A DNA stretch of 64,000 nt from Sphingorhabdus sp. EL138 (GTDB lineage Bacteria > Pseudomonadota > Alphaproteobacteria > Sphingomonadales > Sphingomonadaceae): NCBI RefSeq assembly GCF_900258045.1, contig NZ_OGVD01000004.1, forward strand, positions 1,550,001 to 1,614,000, in the 5' to 3' direction. The notes beneath the pieces were generated by a model. It ran no database searches, was not told the DNA's origin, and saw only the letters and a program-made list of their open reading frames with translations. The translations under genes and the position numbers were made by a program. Of the stretch, positions 42,186 to 49,550 are shown piece after piece (the first letter of the stretch is position 1; every line of letters starts with the position of its first letter).

Positions 42186-43034
42186 CTAGTCAGGTCGCTC
42201 GGCCAGCAAAGCACGCACCAGAGGTTGCAAATTCTCGTCATAGCGGGCGAGCATCACGTGCTCTTCGGCCGTCTCAAAATGACTGACGAGCTGTTTGCCA
42301 TTCCACCAGTGCAGTGCAATGGCCGGCGGGTCCGCGACAATCATATTGCGGCCATCGGGATTTTCAGGATCAATCGGTTCCAGGTCAAATGCAACCTGCG
42401 GTGCGGTGGACGCACAAATCGAGAGGTTTGTGCCTTCAAAAGACGTTGAAATATTCCGGTGCAGGTGGCCAGTAATCATACCCTTGATCTGGTCATGCCC
42501 TGCGATCGTTTCCGCCAGAACCGACACCCATGGCTCACGCGGATCGGTATTCATCCATGCAATACCCGATTCCACAGGAGGATGGTGCATGATGAGCAAT
42601 GTCGGCTTGTCCGGTTTCTCGGCCAGTCTTTCAGCCAGCCATCGTGCGCGAATGTCGCAAAACGCGCCCCCGTGACGCCCCTCTTCCAGCGTATCCAGAA
42701 ACAGCAAACGCAGCGGGCCATCATCAATCTCATATTGGACAAAGCCATCTGCTGAGGGCACGTCGGGAAACTGCTTTTGGAACGGGCCGCGCAGGTCATG
42801 ATTGCCCAGACACATATAGACAGGAAACGGTAAGTCGGAAAAAGCCTGCTCCAGCCGCATGTAACTATCCTGATCACCGCGATCGACCAAGTCGCCCGTA
42901 GCGAGCAGAGCGTCGGGTCGCGGTGTCATCTCGCACAGGACCTTGAGCGCCTGATCGAGGCGCTTGCGGTTAAATTCCGACGGATTATCTGGGTCGAAAC
43001 CGAGATGGATATCCGTTACCTGCGCCAAGATCAT
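42186..43034 (-). CDS. Class III cyclic-nucleotide phosphodiesterase-like metallophosphoesterase (CpdA/GpdQ type)
   Basis: 282 residues. The five metal-binding blocks of the family are all present: TDIHLG, ATGDLVDRGD, CLGNHDLRG, IMHHPPVESG and ITGHLHRN. This arrangement is that of CpdA (3',5'-cAMP phosphodiesterase) and the related glycerophosphodiesterases. It starts 27 bp after the decahaem cytochrome gene, last in an operon whose first gene encodes two cyclic-nucleotide-binding domains. A role in removing the cyclic nucleotide is therefore attractive, but the substrate is inferred. Confidence 0.8.
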   Translation of the reverse strand: MILAQVTDIHLGFDPDNPSEFNRKRLDQALKVLCEMTPRPDALLATGDLVDRGDQDSYMRLEQAFSDLPFPVYMCLGNHDLRGPFQKQFPDVPSADGFVQYEIDDGPLRLLFLDTLEEGRHGGAFCDIRARWLAERLAEKPDKPTLLIMHHPPVESGIAWMNTDPREPWVSVLAETIAGHDQIKGMITGHLHRNISTSFEGTNLSICASTAPQVAFDLEPIDPENPDGRNMIVADPPAIALHWWNGKQLVSHFETAEEHVMLARYDENLQPLVRALLAERPD

Positions 43035-43061
43035 GGGCGCTTCCTCTCTGTTATGTCGCCT

Positions 43062-44933
43062 CTAACGACTGGCAATCTTCTTCTGCTTTCTTATCTTAAC
43101 TGTCAGCTTGTCGGAAGGCTTAAGCACCTCATTGTCGTTCGCCATCTTGTCAGGCTTTTTCCGTTTGTCCTTCTGCTGCTCCTTGATCAGCCAGGGCGCG
43201 CCGTCATCGGCATGGTAATCATGACACATGGCGCAGCTCGATGGAACATCGGAGCTTTTCTGGAACTCGCCGCCATGACATTCACGGCAGGTTTTGATGC
43301 CGGGCAACAGCAGGTCACGCGCGTTGTCCGATGTCGTCGCTGCGTGGCAGGAGGTGCAATCCTCGTCATTATGCGCTTCATGGCTGAACCAGCCCTTGTG
43401 CATATAACGATCAGTCTGCGTTACCGGCTTGATACCATAGTCAACCCGTCCGCGCGCCGTCGGCGGCGTGACGCCATGGCAATCGAAACAGGCGCCGCCG
43501 CGTGAAAATACCTGCTGAATAGCCAGATTTGCCCGGCTTGGCCGGAACTGGACAGCACGCGCATAATCGCTTGCCACCCTGCTGTCATTTTCTGCGCCCG
43601 GACGCCGCCGCTTCATACCGCCAAGATTAATGGGCCGCGAAGGACCGGTGGAACGATAATAAGCGCGCAGGTCCGCACGCACCATATCGGGCTCGCCATG
43701 CCGCAATGTACGCACCGTGCTGCCAATTTCTTCAAAGGCAAGACTGTGGCACATCGCGCAGTCTTCCTCCATGTCCACGGGCTCAAACCGAACACCGTTC
43801 GAATCCGGCGTATGGCAGTCTGCACAGACCAGCGAATCGCCAAAACCAAATTTCGCCGACAGCCGCCGCCCCATTTGCGCGACCCCGCCGGTTTTTGACA
43901 TATGCACATCATGCGGGAATTTCAGACCATTATATTCAGTGGGCTTCTCATCGAGTGAAACCCGCTTGCGAGGTGGATTTTTGCCGCCAGGCTGGACCAG
44001 CAAAGCAGGACGAAACTGCGGGTGTGAAATCCCGAAATCTGACGCATTTTCAAGCTCTGTATCGGTCAAACGCCCGTCCATTCCCTCGTGACAATCCGCG
44101 CAGAATTTTTGCGCAGTAGGTTCCATAGCACCTGCCCCCTCATGCTCGGTGTGACATTCGACACACCTGCCGGGTGGCTTATTAAAGGCTGACGCAAAAG
44201 CCGCACCTACCTTGGCAAAGCCCTCCGGCTCGCCCATGGCTGTCAGCAGGCGGTCTTTTTTGGCATGATCATGTGCGTCATCTTCATGACAGTTCATGCA
44301 GGTTTTGTCTGTGACAGTCACAAAGGCATCGACATGGCAGGCCTGACAATCACCTTCCAGGCTGTGATGTGCATCGCTCAAAGCACCCGATGACCACATG
44401 GTATCGGCATGGAATCCTTCCGGCCGCTCTTCGACGCCGCGATAGGTGGCCCATGTGTAGATCGGCCAGATCAGAAACGCGGCAAGCATAAGTCCGACAA
44501 AACCCCAAGCGCTGACCCGTTTACCGGGCAGCAGGCCTTTCAATGTGTAGAGCGCGCCCTCGTCCCGCTCTTGTGCGGAATCCGAAAGCGCCTCGACCCG
44601 TTTGACGGTCAGGATCACGTCTTCTTCGTCTTGACTGACCGCTATGACATGGCCGCCAAAACCAATTTCAGCACCGGCGCCGGGATCAATGGTTGCGGAC
44701 ATCTGGTCGCGGCCATCAACCGAGAATTTCTGGCCCGAGATACTTTCAATCTCAATCTGGCCGTCTTCAAGCTGGCGAATGACCGCATGGTCGGGATTGA
44801 CGGCCAGGTCTGGCAGATGGATCGCATTTGCCGTATTACGGCCGATCCCGATTTCAGCATCCGTGAACGGATTGGAGCGGATAATCTCGCGCCCATCAGC
44901 GGTGACGGCAATCTGGCGAACGATAAAGGTCAT
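43062..44933 (-). CDS. FHA-domain decahaem cytochrome c
   Basis: 623 residues. Residues 1 to about 115 form an FHA-like beta sandwich (IGIGRNTANAIHLPDLAVNPDHAVI holds the GR and the xxH positions). One membrane helix follows (about 142-163), then a long periplasmic part. It has ten CxxCH haem motifs starting at residues 196, 212, 257, 278, 370, 392, 482, 526, 549 and 567, with many extra His as distal ligands. The tail is Lys-rich. FHA domains read phosphothreonine, so this would link cytoplasmic phosphorylation to a periplasmic multihaem wire. It starts 15 bp after the cytochrome b gene with a GGGAGA Shine-Dalgarno. Confidence 0.88.
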   Translation of the reverse strand: MTFIVRQIAVTADGREIIRSNPFTDAEIGIGRNTANAIHLPDLAVNPDHAVIRQLEDGQIEIESISGQKFSVDGRDQMSATIDPGAGAEIGFGGHVIAVSQDEEDVILTVKRVEALSDSAQERDEGALYTLKGLLPGKRVSAWGFVGLMLAAFLIWPIYTWATYRGVEERPEGFHADTMWSSGALSDAHHSLEGDCQACHVDAFVTVTDKTCMNCHEDDAHDHAKKDRLLTAMGEPEGFAKVGAAFASAFNKPPGRCVECHTEHEGAGAMEPTAQKFCADCHEGMDGRLTDTELENASDFGISHPQFRPALLVQPGGKNPPRKRVSLDEKPTEYNGLKFPHDVHMSKTGGVAQMGRRLSAKFGFGDSLVCADCHTPDSNGVRFEPVDMEEDCAMCHSLAFEEIGSTVRTLRHGEPDMVRADLRAYYRSTGPSRPINLGGMKRRRPGAENDSRVASDYARAVQFRPSRANLAIQQVFSRGGACFDCHGVTPPTARGRVDYGIKPVTQTDRYMHKGWFSHEAHNDEDCTSCHAATTSDNARDLLLPGIKTCRECHGGEFQKSSDVPSSCAMCHDYHADDGAPWLIKEQQKDKRKKPDKMANDNEVLKPSDKLTVKIRKQKKIASR

Positions 44934-44948
44934 GCTGCTATCTCCCGC

Positions 44949-45830
44949 CTACCAGTAAAAGAAAACGCTGATGATATGCGCCGACAGCGACGCGATCAGG
45001 GCGAAGGTCATCGGTACATGAATGAACAACCAGACCTGCAGCAGCGCTTTCAGCCGAAGATGGCGGCGGACGCGCGCGAGCGTCGCTTCCTTTTTCTCAA
45101 GCAGCGCATCAACCTTGTCGAGCGGATCATCCCCGCCCATGCGAGGCTGATAAGCGCGTTCTCGCCGCAAATCAGCCTGCGCAGCGCGGGTAGCGCAATT
45201 GGGATATTTGCCGGATACCCGTTTCAGAAAACCGCCGCCGAAGGGATCCTGTTCCAGTGATTGCAGCACTAAGGCCGCGTGTTCGGCTGACAATGGCTGT
45301 GCCGCTTCATGCAATTGCCGGTCGAGCGAGCGCAGGCTTTCCAGCATCTGCGTCTCGGTCATCTCGTCGCGATTGTTGGACAGCGCCTGCGGAATGGTTG
45401 CGTAGAAATAGATGCCGACAATGCCAGAGATGATCACGATCATCATGAAGGCATAGGTGGCCGTATGGATGTTCCAGCCAAACTGGAAACCGGTGTGCAA
45501 TGTGCCGATGACAATCAGGCTGAGGCCGAGATAGATATGCGCCGAGGTCCAAGCCTTGAGCGACCATTTGCCCGAGGTCATTGCCCGCTTGCGGACACCA
45601 AGCATGGTGAGCCACAGGATGAGCCCGGCCCCGATCGTGCCGAGCGTATAGCCATACCAGCTGCCGCCATTATGGCGCGGCGAGACGTCGATGAAGAGAT
45701 AGCTGACAATGGATAGCAGCATGATGAAAGAGGCAATTTTCAGCCATTTATAGCCAGCATGTTTTAGAAAACCGTCATGCATGGCGACTTTCTTTTTCGC
45801 GACATCACCGGGAACAGGAACAGAGGCCAT
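44949..45830 (-). CDS. Predicted di-haem b-type membrane cytochrome
   Basis: 293 residues from the ATG at 45830, which overlaps the stop of the upstream fusion gene (TAATG); the longer upstream reading lies inside that gene. Five membrane helices are visible at about 29-47, 62-78, 96-114, 123-145 and 265-290. His98/His112 and His271/His285 form two His-x13-His pairs in helices 3 and 5, the classical layout for two stacked b haems, with His122 in reserve. Residues 150-262 are a charged, helical cytoplasmic insert of unknown role. The protein could carry electrons between the ferredoxin-flavin subunit and the decahaem subunit. Confidence 0.7.
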   Translation of the reverse strand: MASVPVPGDVAKKKVAMHDGFLKHAGYKWLKIASFIMLLSIVSYLFIDVSPRHNGGSWYGYTLGTIGAGLILWLTMLGVRKRAMTSGKWSLKAWTSAHIYLGLSLIVIGTLHTGFQFGWNIHTATYAFMMIVIISGIVGIYFYATIPQALSNNRDEMTETQMLESLRSLDRQLHEAAQPLSAEHAALVLQSLEQDPFGGGFLKRVSGKYPNCATRAAQADLRRERAYQPRMGGDDPLDKVDALLEKKEATLARVRRHLRLKALLQVWLFIHVPMTFALIASLSAHIISVFFYW

Positions 45831-48325
45831 TATGCGTCCTCCTGCTCTAGCTTGGCGACGGTGAGGAATTCTTCTGGCGCGACACGGATCGCGGCACCGG
45901 TGGGACAGGCGCGGACACAGGCCGGGCCGCCGTTGATACCGGCGCACATATCACACTTGATCGCTTTCTTGGGTTTCTCGACATCGGGATCGCTATTTGC
46001 TGCGGCCCATTGCTTGTCGGGCTCACCGGGACCCGGCCCACTACCGAAGAACAGCCAGCTCAGCAGGCCGGGTTTCTTCGGCGGCACCTTGTCCATGCGG
46101 ATCACGCCATAGGGGCAATAACGCTGGCAATTGCCGCAACCGATGCAAGTGTCATCAATAAACACTTCGCCGTCCGCACCGCGGTGGATCGCATCGGGCG
46201 GGCAATCGGACATGCAATGCGGATGCTCGCAGTGCCGGCAGCTTGTCGGGACGTGCAGATGTGCATAGGTCCGGCCTGCTTCCCGGTCGAGACGGGACAG
46301 ACCTTCATGGCTGTCGGCACAAGCTTTCTCGCAATTATCGCAGCCGACGCATAGATTCTCGTCGATAAGCAAAACATCGGTCGCTTCACCGATACCATTG
46401 TCGACGAGGAAATTGGCAACACCAGAATACATGTCGACAACGCCGGAGAAGCTGTCTTTTTTTGCCTCGACAAAGGCATTCACATCCTGACGAGAGGCCA
46501 TTTCCTGCTTGGCCTTGCGCATCAGGTCGGGATGCTTGTCGAGGACCTTCTTAAAGGCATCGCCGTTGATCTTGATGACTTCCGACTTGATCGCCGCCTT
46601 TACAGTCGCGGTCCGCATGCCGCCCGCGATCAGGGTCATTTCCCCGACGTAAGAACCTGCTGGCAGATAGGACAGGAACACCGGCTTGCCACCAATTTCC
46701 TTTTCCACGACCATCGATCCCACGCGAATGACGTAGATATCATTGCCCGCGCTGCCTTCCTCAATAATCGCTTCGCCTGCCCTGACATTCATAATCTCGC
46801 TGCTCTCGACAACCTCAGAGATATCGTCTTTGGTCAGGCCGGAACCAAACATCTGCAGCAACTGGCGTTCCGTGGAGATGCGCGTGATAGCGCGCTTGGC
46901 AGCTGGCACCGAGGCCTGCAGTTTCAACGCCGCCGTGCGGGAAATCTCTACAACGATCAGGTCTTCAGCCGCGTTAATGGTCGCACCGCGGCGGCGACCG
47001 GAAATCAGGCCTACTTCGCCGAAAATCGATCCCTCCTCAATGGGCACCGTGATCGACGGGTCATTGGGATCAATTTCCACCGCCACCGAACCTTCCGCAA
47101 TGGCGAACAGCGATGAGCCCGGTTCATTCTTCTCGAAAGCCACCTCGCCGCGACGATAACGGCGCGGTTCGCTGTCGAGCATGAACTCCCGCATCTGCAG
47201 TGATGATAGCTCGTTAAGAATAGTGACCCGCTCCCGGAAAAATTCCAGCCACTCATCGACCGACTTGCCACCGGGCAGGTCTGCAAATTTCTTCTCGAGT
47301 ATTGGCTCATCCGCTGGCTTCAGGTCTTTGTTACCGTTGATAAATTCAATGACGTCATAGCCCTGGTTCATACAGTGCTTGATCAGTGGATAGCCAGCCA
47401 GCGCACCGATGACATAAATGCCCTTCTTCGTGCTTTCGAAAGCCGGGGTCAGCTTGGGATAAGCCTCCCGATCTTCGCTGGTAAATTCAATTCCGCATTC
47501 TTCGACAAATTTGCGCGGCGGTGCTGATCCCATGCGTGCAATGATCCGGTCGCACTTGATTGTTTCTTGCCCATCGCGGGTTTCGAGCACCAGCTCACCA
47601 TCCTTGACTTCCGCAGGGGTTGTCTCGGTACGGACATCTACCTTGCCCTGCTCGCCGGCTTCCATCAACAGCTTCACGTTGGCCTTTTTTGCACGCGCAA
47701 ATTCCGGCGAGCGATTGAGGATCGTGACAATATTATTCTGAGCCGCATCGGCCGCCAGACCCAGCGCATTCTCAATCCCGGCATCGCCGGAGCCGATCAC
47801 GGTAATATGCTCGTCATAATATTCGCCGGGGTCATCCAACTGATATTGCACCAGCTTGTTATCACCGCCGGGACAGCGCATCAGGTTCGGATTGCCCTGC
47901 GTCCCAATCGCCATGACGATCGTTTCCGCCATCACTTTATCACCGTTTTTCAACGTGATAGTGAAGTTTCCTTCGTCTCCTTCGATCTTCACCGGTTCGG
48001 CATTAAACTGGACATTGACCTCGCAAGCCGCGGTCTGCTTGTCCCAGATCTCCAGTATGGCTTCGCGCTTGCCCGCGTCAAAATCCATGTCCGAACGCAG
48101 CACCAGTTGGCTCGGCGTCGCCATGACATGCTTGCCTTTTTGATATTTGTAGATGGTGTCGGAAAGATGGTCAGTCTTTTCCAGCAGCACATGTTTCAGC
48201 TTCAACTGTGCGGCACGGCCAGCAGCACTCATGCCCGCTGGTCCCGATCCCACGATCACCACTCGAAACTTGTCCGCCACGCGCTTCTTCCCCCTTTTGC
48301 CCTTCTTGGCCCAACGCTCCCTCAT
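45830..48325 (-). CDS. Flavin oxidoreductase - tandem cyclic-nucleotide-binding - four [4Fe-4S] ferredoxin fusion
   Basis: 831 residues. Residues 20-340 form a two-dinucleotide-binding flavoprotein (VVIVGSGPAGMSAAG for FAD, ITVIGSGDAGIENALG for NAD(P)H, and the closing GIYVIGALAGYPLIK), without the CxxC of thioredoxin reductases. Residues of about 380-490 and 505-605 are two cyclic-nucleotide-binding domains. The second has a full phosphate cassette (GEMTL...RTATV, 561-575); the first is weaker (GEVGL...RGATI). Residues 655-815 carry 16 cysteines (659/662/665/669, 696/699/704/708, 727/730/733/737, 791/794/803/807) in the DmsB/NrfC four-cluster pattern. A GTG start at 48280, after AGGGGG, is an alternative that removes a basic 15-residue leader. 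First gene of the redox operon. Confidence 0.85.
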   Translation of the reverse strand: MRERWAKKGKRGKKRVADKFRVVIVGSGPAGMSAAGRAAQLKLKHVLLEKTDHLSDTIYKYQKGKHVMATPSQLVLRSDMDFDAGKREAILEIWDKQTAACEVNVQFNAEPVKIEGDEGNFTITLKNGDKVMAETIVMAIGTQGNPNLMRCPGGDNKLVQYQLDDPGEYYDEHITVIGSGDAGIENALGLAADAAQNNIVTILNRSPEFARAKKANVKLLMEAGEQGKVDVRTETTPAEVKDGELVLETRDGQETIKCDRIIARMGSAPPRKFVEECGIEFTSEDREAYPKLTPAFESTKKGIYVIGALAGYPLIKHCMNQGYDVIEFINGNKDLKPADEPILEKKFADLPGGKSVDEWLEFFRERVTILNELSSLQMREFMLDSEPRRYRRGEVAFEKNEPGSSLFAIAEGSVAVEIDPNDPSITVPIEEGSIFGEVGLISGRRRGATINAAEDLIVVEISRTAALKLQASVPAAKRAITRISTERQLLQMFGSGLTKDDISEVVESSEIMNVRAGEAIIEEGSAGNDIYVIRVGSMVVEKEIGGKPVFLSYLPAGSYVGEMTLIAGGMRTATVKAAIKSEVIKINGDAFKKVLDKHPDLMRKAKQEMASRQDVNAFVEAKKDSFSGVVDMYSGVANFLVDNGIGEATDVLLIDENLCVGCDNCEKACADSHEGLSRLDREAGRTYAHLHVPTSCRHCEHPHCMSDCPPDAIHRGADGEVFIDDTCIGCGNCQRYCPYGVIRMDKVPPKKPGLLSWLFFGSGPGPGEPDKQWAAANSDPDVEKPKKAIKCDMCAGINGGPACVRACPTGAAIRVAPEEFLTVAKLEQEDA

Positions 48326-48554: not shown

Positions 48555-49550
48555 ATGAGCGAGCCACAAGAAACAGCACCATCCGGCAAAAAGGCGACCG
48601 GCAATATCAGTCGTATTGCCCTGATATCTGCCGCCGTCCTGGCAATCGGAGCGGTTGGTGTGCAGGTCTATCGCGGCATGGACGCCGCTGGATCAGGCAG
48701 CAGCGCGGATACCCAAGCGGCGTCTGGTGAAACCGAAACGGCGCCCAGTGTCGATGAAGTCATCGCCGGCCTTGAAAAAAAGCTTCAGGATGACCCCGAA
48801 GATGCTGAAAGCTGGCGCATGCTGGGTTGGAGCTATTTCGAAACCGAAAAATATGCCGAATCCGCCACGGCGATGAAACGCGCGACAACGCTTGATCCTG
48901 ATAATGCCGAATATTGGTCAATGCTGGGCGAAGCGCTGGTCATGTCAAGCGACGGGCAGCAGGTGCCCGGCGATGCCGCGGATGCGTTCAGAAAGGCGCT
49001 GGCCATTGACAAGAGTGATCCGCGCGCGCGCTATTTCCTTGCAGTTCAGAAAGATATTTCCGGCGATCACAAGGGCGCCATCAATGACTGGTTCGCGTTG
49101 CTCGAAGACACGCCGGCAGATGCGCCTTATGCCGCAGATATTCGCCGCGTGATCGGACAGGTTGCCGAAAAGGAAAATATCGACGTGGCCGCGCGGCTCG
49201 CCAAGGTGACGCCAGCAGCGCCCACGGGCGGCATTTCAACCGACGGTCCGCAAGTTGCTACCGCAGCTATCCCCGGCCCCAGCCGCCAGCAAATGCAAGA
49301 GGCCGCCGCCTTGCCCGCCGGTCAGCAGGAAGCAATGATCGCCAATATGGTCGATGGCCTTGATCAACGGCTGCAATCCAACCCCAATGACGCCAATGGC
49401 TGGATCATGCTGATGCGCAGCCGCATGCAACTGGGTCAAACTGCCAAAGCCAAAAAGGCGCTGGCCGACGGATTGGCGGCGTTCAAGAATGATGGTGCAG
49501 AGGCCAAACGGATTCGCGAGGCGGGAATGGCCTTGGGCGTTGGGGGCTAA
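48555..49550 (+). CDS. CcmI/CycH-like TPR protein of cytochrome c maturation
   Basis: 331 residues from the ATG at 48555 (AGGAACGGG about ten bases upstream); an earlier in-frame ATG would add 39 atypical residues. One membrane helix (about 18-38) is followed by an acidic linker and TPR repeats (PEDAESWRMLGWSYFETEKYAESATAMKRA, NAEYWSMLGEALVM, DPRARYFLAVQ). The C-terminal QRLQSNPNDANGWIMLMRSRMQLGQ repeats resemble the CcmI region that presents apocytochromes c to the haem-ligation complex. Its place opposite a decahaem cytochrome operon supports this. No other ccm gene is in the window, so a general TPR role cannot be excluded. Confidence 0.7.
   Translation: MSEPQETAPSGKKATGNISRIALISAAVLAIGAVGVQVYRGMDAAGSGSSADTQAASGETETAPSVDEVIAGLEKKLQDDPEDAESWRMLGWSYFETEKYAESATAMKRATTLDPDNAEYWSMLGEALVMSSDGQQVPGDAADAFRKALAIDKSDPRARYFLAVQKDISGDHKGAINDWFALLEDTPADAPYAADIRRVIGQVAEKENIDVAARLAKVTPAAPTGGISTDGPQVATAAIPGPSRQQMQEAAALPAGQQEAMIANMVDGLDQRLQSNPNDANGWIMLMRSRMQLGQTAKAKKALADGLAAFKNDGAEAKRIREAGMALGVGG

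Follow-up and report, generated by a model that had tools for sequence, protein, structure and literature searches.

According to the available part of a 2018 survey (PMC6295460), bacterial extracellular electron transfer was at that time known to begin or terminate at only three inner-membrane protein families, all of them acting on quinones; in the CbcL, MtrH and MtoC proteins described there, a membrane dihaem cytochrome b and a periplasmic multihaem cytochrome c that feeds an outer-membrane conduit are united in one polypeptide, and CbcL is proposed to be fed by quinol. The present analysis concerns a minus-strand cluster of four genes at positions 42186-48325 of a 64,000-nucleotide stretch from Sphingorhabdus sp. 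EL138 (the window, G000:C1:1550001-1614000; host genome 3.66 Mb), which probably constitutes the inner-membrane part of an electron conduit across both membranes, fed by NAD(P)H and gated by cyclic nucleotides. The predicted system shares with the aforementioned proteins the combination of a membrane dihaem b part and a periplasmic multihaem c part leading to an outer-membrane conduit, but the two cytochromes are encoded by separate genes; unlike CbcL, it includes a cytoplasmic protein with an FAD/NAD(P) domain, four [4Fe-4S] cluster sites and two cyclic nucleotide-binding (CNB) domains, and is set apart by this description. Further inner-membrane entry families have been described after 2018.

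The Mtr/Pcc conduits (MtrCAB, OmcB type) combine an outer-membrane barrel and multihaem cytochromes in one gene cluster, an arrangement that the present system would share if its barrel-like protein is a genuine barrel; in contrast to these, the barrel-like protein of the present system has no Pfam or PDB match, its presumed surface cytochrome exceeds 1,250 aa and carries LVIVD repeats, and an HbpS-like lipoprotein and a C554-like tetrahaem protein are additionally present. In the NADPH oxidases and ferric reductases (NOX/FRE), whose principle of operation the complex would share, electrons leave the cytoplasm from NAD(P)H via flavin and two stacked haems b that are held by two helices with His-x13-His spacing, under the control of EF-hand or phox subunits. 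Gene 2 of the cluster resembles them in its two conserved histidine pairs about 13 residues apart; it has no ferric-reductase match, and the predicted complex differs in the iron-sulfur centers placed between flavin and haem, in the decahaem acceptor and in the presumed regulation by CNB domains. The sequence-only reading of the locus had not recognised a named system. In agreement with this, the papers listed in searches of the open PMC library included, judged by the beginnings of their abstracts, nothing recognisable as this system (LVIVD terms being barely covered there), the main text of a survey of outer-membrane multihaem cytochromes (PMC11475568), as far as available, mentions neither Alphaproteobacteria nor Sphingo, and the annotated Sphingobium herbicidovorans megaplasmid lists the whole set under generic gene names only.

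Architecture of the four proteins

ORF and profile analysis of the window confirmed the cluster, all features of which lie on the minus strand: gene 1 (A1; 45830..48325, 831 aa), gene 2 (A2; 44949..45830, 293 aa), gene 3 (A3; 43062..44933, 623 aa) and gene 4 (A4; 42186..43034, 282 aa). The stop codon of gene 1 and the start codon of gene 2 overlap as TAATG, and gaps of only 15 and 27 nt separate gene 2 from gene 3 and gene 3 from gene 4, respectively. Both the domains and the operon proposed by the sequence-only reading were borne out, the latter by the overlap and the short gaps. Since the order of the genes and their motifs are retained across many families (see below), the four genes are not a chance association.

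Gene 1 combines three functional parts, which were compared by aligning the window protein to 80 named relatives (81 sequences in total); these relatives and their neighbourhoods, the named loci, are the best 80 of 529 gene 1 candidates. The YpdA-like FAD/NAD(P) domain (residues 20-322; 47360..48268) is recognised by Pfam (Pyr_redox_3, E 9.8e-31; also Pyr_redox_2), and its nearest PDB entries carry the labels thioredoxin reductase (7a76) and YpdA/Bdr (7a7b). The GxGxxG glycines of the flavin and nucleotide sites are invariant (81/81). Despite this relationship to YpdA/Bdr, the protein stays far below the cut-off of the YpdA bacillithiol disulfide reductase family (NCBIfam TIGR04018; 125.2 versus 339.9 bits). 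The cNMP_binding family PF00027 matches two stretches of gene 1 (E 8.8e-31; 106 bits, cut-off 27.5), which by Pfam, PDB and alignment correspond to CNB domain 1 (approximately residues 388-480; 46886..47164, limits approximate) with the phosphate cassette FGEVGLISGRRRGAT at residues 435-449 and CNB domain 2 (residues 513-598; 46532..46789) with the cassette VGEMTLIAGGMRTAT at residues 560-574. The Gly-Glu and Arg of both cassettes (E437/R446 and E562/R571) are kept in all 81 sequences, the other cassette positions being variable; both cassettes are thus intact, and at sequence level the domains do not lack a nucleotide pocket, an absence that would have contradicted the sequence-only reading. 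The best PDB matches of the pair are the tandem CNB domains of two regulatory subunits of protein kinase A (PKA), namely 4din (RI-beta, E 3.1e-20) and 1rgs (RI-alpha, E 6.4e-19), in which both domains likewise carry phosphate cassettes; here, the tandem is attached to a redox enzyme and no kinase is involved. Bacterial CNB domains do not reliably follow the rule by which the residue after the cassette Arg distinguishes cAMP from cGMP. As this residue (572) is moreover mixed among the 81 sequences (T 61, S 11, N 3 and V 3 being the four commonest), no specific nucleotide is named for the pair. The C-terminal part is a DmsB/HycB-like ferredoxin domain with sites for four clusters (residues 652-827; 45845..46372; Pfam with several Fer4 families, PDB and alignment), nearest in the PDB to the iron-sulfur subunit of formate hydrogenlyase (7z0s); all 16 cluster cysteines are invariant (81/81).

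Gene 2 is predicted to encode a five-helix, dihaem b-type cytochrome. No Pfam family exceeded its cut-off in a scan at E<=0.1 (best: Ni_hydr_CYTB, E 0.0097), in which a Ferric_reduct-type profile did not match either, and the PDB profile search returned noise only. The assignment is rather based on two His-x13-His pairs, His98/112 and His271/285, which are invariant in 77/77 close relatives including the window protein as well as in 25/25 proteins picked from three divergent types, and which are probably the haem ligands. The predicted model (pLDDT 85.4) contains long helices at residues 28-46, 58-81, 91-113, 121-153 and 236-292, the last two being separated by shorter ones. Lys and Arg residues are found in the N-terminal stretch, the loop 81-90 and the segment 147-262, with one in the loop 47-57 and none in 114-123; this distribution is consistent with an N-terminus inside, and in the gene 1-gene 2 fusions described below the cytochrome starts directly after the cytoplasmic ferredoxin. 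With this topology, His98 and His271 would face the cytoplasm and His112 and His285 the periplasm, which is the placement to be expected of two serial haems b. Membership in the CbcL group was considered and rejected: gene 2 has no CXXCH and gene 3 is separate, so that the one-polypeptide architecture is absent.

Gene 3 consists of a cytoplasmic FHA-like domain, one transmembrane helix and a periplasmic decahaem region (43212..44348; Cytochrome_C7, E 2.5e-14), whose ten CXXCH motifs recur in 74/74 aligned proteins. The FHA/YscD-like domain of the window protein (residues 23-92; 44658..44867) matches FHA weakly (E 0.0017; 19.1 bits, cut-off 20.7); among 50 gene 3 proteins scanned (the window, 40 of 73 named relatives and nine class genomes), PF00498 was detected at E<=0.01 in 41 (best 3.9e-8) and a YscD-like match in 45. 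Phosphothreonine-binding FHA domains are characterised by a Gly-Arg and a Ser-x-x-His signature. While Gly31-Arg32 and His49 are kept in 74/74 proteins, the phosphate-binding Ser is lost in the window protein, and its position is occupied by E, N, T or D in 64/74. Because of this loss, the phosphothreonine tuning that had been read into the domain is not supported, and a docking role appears more likely.

Gene 4 is, judged by its motifs, a homologue of class III (calcineurin-like) cyclic nucleotide phosphodiesterases (Metallophos, E 1.1e-17; 65.6 versus 21.5 bits), for which 3',5'- or 2',3'-cyclic nucleotides are candidate substrates. The D-x-H, GD, GNH and GH-x-H motifs are present in 68/68 named relatives and, read by eye, in the window protein, and are shared with CpdA, Rv0805, GpdQ and SpdA. 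The nearest PDB entries are 2dxl, which we take to be GpdQ, and Rv0805; the nearest NCBIfam models are SpdA and CpdA, the equivalog cut-offs of which are both missed (138 versus 400 and 80.8 versus 225 bits, respectively). The gene is present in 66/69 of the named loci that reach far enough (missing in L142, L143 and L163). The host genome additionally contains three class III cyclase matches, which count in favor of the proposed conduit.

Linkage and sister types

Distribution was examined in the named loci and in a class sample of 289 and a phylum sample of 398 genomes, which partly comprise the same genomes. By title and taxonomy, the 80 named loci belong to Sphingomonadales, except for six whose titles say no more than bacterium, Alphaproteobacteria or Pseudomonadota. 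Named close relatives of gene 1 stem from Sphingorhabdus/Parasphingorhabdus and other Sphingomonadaceae, and the cluster is also found in Sphingobium, Novosphingobium, Sphingomonas and Erythrobacter relatives. A gene 2 search among 30 close relatives gave 19 matches, i.e. all 18 genomes of the genus (the own one included; for G008 the match covers a fragment of 40 residues where a contig ends) and, weakly, G026.

In the class sample, 41/289 genomes matched gene 2, 27 of them, referred to as type A, strongly (E < 1e-50) and the other 14 weakly. Gene 1 adjoins gene 2 in 23 of the 27 strong genomes; in G303 it is located on the same contig and strand without being adjacent, and in G149 and G207 the two genes are on different contigs. 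A multihaem gene, or its start, follows directly downstream of gene 2 in 27/27 (a contig end cuts that of G253). In the phylum sample, gene 2 was detected in 15/398 genomes, and the five outside the class all possess genes 1 and 3 (the latter with nine or ten CXXCH). In two of these genomes from outside the class (G343, G452), genes 1 and 2 form a single ORF of 1118 and 1123 aa on the plus strand (L203:7350-10703 and L206:3052-6420), behind which a cytochrome with nine CXXCH is encoded. Where the contig of a named locus reaches far enough, gene 2 follows gene 1 in 76/76 and gene 3 is present in 71/71. Genes 1-3 are hence neighbours in relatives up to distant families and beyond the class; the lack of linkage in related genomes that would have contradicted the sequence-only reading was not observed. 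In G149, one contig carries the cytochrome b, an FHA-like decahaem gene, c4, c5 and a barrel-like gene, and a different contig carries gene 1 by itself (L055 and L227).

The weak gene 2 matches represent two further arrangements, in which a cytochrome b of this family stands beside other partners. Type B comprises 12 loci (L063-L065, L067-L074 and L076; contig ends truncate L068 and L071) and contains a CNB-ferredoxin protein of 558-603 aa, cytochrome b and multihaem cytochrome c in 12/12, a separate FNR-type NAD/FAD/2Fe-2S reductase gene and a C554-like tetrahaem gene in 11/12 each, a pentahaem relative in 10/12 and a barrel-like relative in 9/12. Its CNB-ferredoxin shows four Cys quartets in 12/12 and one canonical CNB cassette in 11/12; no FAD domain was detected in the one protein scanned (L073). 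From its gene content, type B may be regarded as a sister conduit, to which no name could be matched. Type C (three genomes: L066/L175, L075 and L077) has the cytochrome b beside multihaem cytochromes, with 21 and 33 CXXCH (L077:5458-13818, L175:1-9350 and L075:4223-7678); the oxidoreductases of L077 and L175 are of a Fer4-FAD type and, in the scan of both, revealed no CNB domain. In L077, an ankyrin-repeat protein is encoded between these genes. As an FNR-type reductase replaces the FAD domain in type B, the NAD(P)H-oxidising part appears to have been swapped while CNB-ferredoxin, cytochrome b and decahaem cytochrome were kept; this swap provides the best sequence argument for a pyridine nucleotide as the cytoplasmic partner.

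A proposed outer-membrane module

A second set of genes would extend the route to the cell surface: it encodes a C554-like tetrahaem cytochrome c, an HbpS-like lipoprotein, a probable outer-membrane barrel and a decahaem protein with LVIVD repeats. In sphingomonads these genes form a second operon, which in the own genome is located at C1:191.4-201.1 kb, 1.4 Mb from the locus of genes 1-4. In the own genome, the HbpS-like protein carries a lipobox (LTSC). The barrel-like protein ends in Tyr or Phe in 43/43 type A sequences, as outer-membrane barrels do, and was on this ground assigned as a probable barrel. The LVIVD protein measures approximately 1,250-1,460 aa where complete and includes a non-haem C-terminal region; a match to the Mtrc-MtrF_II-IV domain (31.1 bits, E 2e-7) is restricted to a multihaem stretch of 111 residues, and the PDB search gave no sequence match.

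The affiliation of this module with genes 1-3 emerges from loci in which both are joined. In the 19 type A neighbourhoods outside the own family (L044-L062, about 20 kb), an HbpS-like gene and the C-terminal-aromatic protein of about 620 aa follow genes 2-3 in 14, and a decahaem LVIVD-repeat protein of about 1,260 aa is present in 13 of these 14 (L056 ends inside the barrel gene); of the remaining five, three contain a pentahaem and another barrel-like gene and two a tetrahaem gene alone nearby. In G303 (L226), the order on one strand is gene 2 - gene 3 - HbpS - barrel - LVIVD decahaem - gene 1 - c4, and contig C11 of G207 (barrel - LVIVD - gene 1 - c4) equals the end of this order. Among the named loci, 41/80 contain an LVIVD match inside the locus, which in 37 cases is located on the opposite strand; of the 39 loci with no such match, 13 end less than 5.4 kb downstream of gene 1.

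Both modules also co-occur at genome level. The LVIVD decahaem protein is present in 17/18 genomes of the own genus, in 20/289 class genomes (E<=1e-30) and in 11/398 phylum genomes (E<=1e-20), and all 20 and all 11 possess gene 2; the two counts are not fully independent, as the samples share genomes. In the own family (phylum sample), gene 2 and the LVIVD protein agree in 19/19 genomes (eight with both, eleven with neither), and four of these genomes (G000, G510, G635, G679) hold the two loci unlinked. The Fisher values of 2.6e-25, 1.6e-18 and 1.3e-5 ignore phylogeny. From these patterns, joint gain and loss of unlinked loci would be hard to explain other than by shared function. The entire two-operon set was also observed on a 959-kb plasmid of Sphingobium herbicidovorans that is typed conjugative (L211; NZ_CP020539.1, 799960-828799); together with the patchy distribution inside the family, the plasmid type suggests that the set is transferred and lost as a unit.

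Proposed electron route and alternative explanations

In the proposed mechanism, gene 1 would exchange hydride with NAD(P)H at its FAD domain in the cytoplasm and pass single electrons from FAD through the four [4Fe-4S] clusters to the dihaem cytochrome b encoded by gene 2, whose putative haems, ligated by His98-His271 on the cytoplasmic and then His112-His285 on the periplasmic side, would carry them across the membrane. The ten haems c of gene 3, a protein held in the membrane by a single helix and with its FHA-like domain in the cytoplasm, would take over and deliver the electrons via the tetrahaem cytochrome c to the barrel/LVIVD decahaem pair and thereby to an acceptor outside. The PKA-R-like CNB pair would switch the flow on or off upon binding of cAMP or cGMP, and gene 4 would erase the signal by removing the nucleotide locally. 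The order FAD - Fe-S - dihaem b - decahaem c was already part of the sequence-only reading and is supported by the gene 1-gene 2 fusions and the conserved ligands; that reading had missed the outer-membrane half, through which the route would reach the cell surface. In kind, this would be a trans-envelope multihaem conduit and as such already known; there is a fair chance that NAD(P)H feed and cyclic nucleotide gating make it more than that. If true, it would be a new entry point supplied by NAD(P)H and equipped with its own second-messenger switch; since cofactors, sensors and an accessible donor are united in one protein, gene 1 would render cyclic nucleotide gating of electron export directly testable. 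Sphingobium, Novosphingobium, Sphingomonas and Erythrobacter relatives have drawn interest as pollutant degraders and are not usually treated as electroactive. The wider proposal that many aerobic sphingomonads and other Pseudomonadota perform a quinone-independent extracellular electron transfer, fed by NAD(P)H and opened or closed by cAMP or cGMP, is tentative and falls somewhat short of being probable.

Several observations weigh against the proposed conduit. The hosts are mostly aerobes, for which no known extracellular acceptor was found; comparison of the predicted gene 2 fold revealed generic helical bundles only, and the barrel protein matched no Pfam family (E<=0.01) and no PDB sequence. 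The LVIVD decahaem protein is missing in 7/27 strong gene 2 genomes of the class and in 4/15 phylum genomes. Gene 4 was observed immediately behind gene 3 nowhere but in the own family and in the named loci, and it was not detected in the 19 class neighbourhoods outside the own family (in L204, a relative lies about 4.7 kb further on). The linkage across the 80 named loci owes partly to common descent. In a mirror-tree test of the 34 loci with all six genes, with the neighbouring TPR gene as control, the distance correlations of genes 1-2 (0.80), 1-3 (0.82) and 2-3 (0.90) were only modestly above those with the control (0.71-0.80), gene 4 reached 0.75-0.83 with genes 1-3, and the LVIVD protein, at 0.74-0.81, correlated with them no better than with the control (0.80). 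The test thus lends weak support to the trio and none to the LVIVD link.

In G253 (450 contigs, 93% complete) gene 1 has no match, so that gene 2 may take electrons from elsewhere as well. This fragmented genome, with its cytochrome b and multihaem cytochrome c, would suit an arrangement in which gene 2 acts, as proposed for CbcL, as a quinol oxidase or quinone reductase feeding gene 3 from the quinone pool, and gene 1 mainly regulates it or connects NAD(P)H and quinone. DmsB/HycB-like ferredoxins often adjoin quinone-reactive subunits. The inner-membrane entry points listed in the available part of the 2018 survey are all quinol oxidases or quinone reductases, and CbcL has a HydC/FdnI-like dihaem b part (PMC6295460). 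The gene 1-gene 2 fusions and the tight linkage, however, argue for direct transfer from Fe-S to haem b, and a pyridine-nucleotide flavoprotein accompanies the cytochrome b in type A (FAD), in 11/12 of type B (FNR) and in 2/3 of type C (Fer4-FAD); a quinone-linked function is regarded as unlikely. Still more improbable is electron uptake, i.e. the passage of electrons from an external or periplasmic donor via the decahaem proteins to gene 1 and NAD(P)+. The anatomy of the system does not fix the direction, and the multihaem conduits of Shewanella work both ways (PMC6295460, available part); but reduction of NAD(P)+ by a typical external donor would be uphill, and no energy-coupling subunit was seen. 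The hosts, moreover, are mainly heterotrophs.

A possibility rated doubtful, though the least so of the alternatives, is that the chain feeds a periplasmic or outer-membrane reductase, either the decahaem-LVIVD or the HbpS-like protein, whose substrate would be a defined soluble compound or oxidised components of the envelope instead of an extracellular solid. The great size of the LVIVD protein with its non-haem region would fit an enzyme, as would the haem binding or degradation implied by the HbpS family name and the aerobic life of the hosts, whereas the HbpS lipobox, the aromatic C-terminus of the barrel-like protein and a total of 24 CXXCH in gene 3, c4 and the LVIVD protein rather suggest long-range transfer across the outer membrane. 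With regard to control, the CNB pair might be a mere structural linker and gene 4 a general phosphodiesterase: Ligand-free CNB-like folds exist, gene 4 stays under both named phosphodiesterase cut-offs, and the two type C oxidoreductases scanned are devoid of CNB domains. This explanation seems unlikely in view of the cassette residues kept in every aligned gene 1 protein and in nearly all type B relatives, the PKA regulatory tandem as best structural match and the regular presence of the phosphodiesterase gene in the operon of the named loci.

Adjacent to the conduit proper, a CcmI/CycH-like TPR gene (Pfam; 48555..49550, plus strand) is divergently oriented to gene 1. Its start was set by us at the ATG of MSEPQ (48438 in the ORF list), which leaves about 230 bases between the starts of the two genes. 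The gene stands divergently beside gene 1 in 59/75 named loci, and its CcmI/CycH-like character points to a possible link with cytochrome c maturation.

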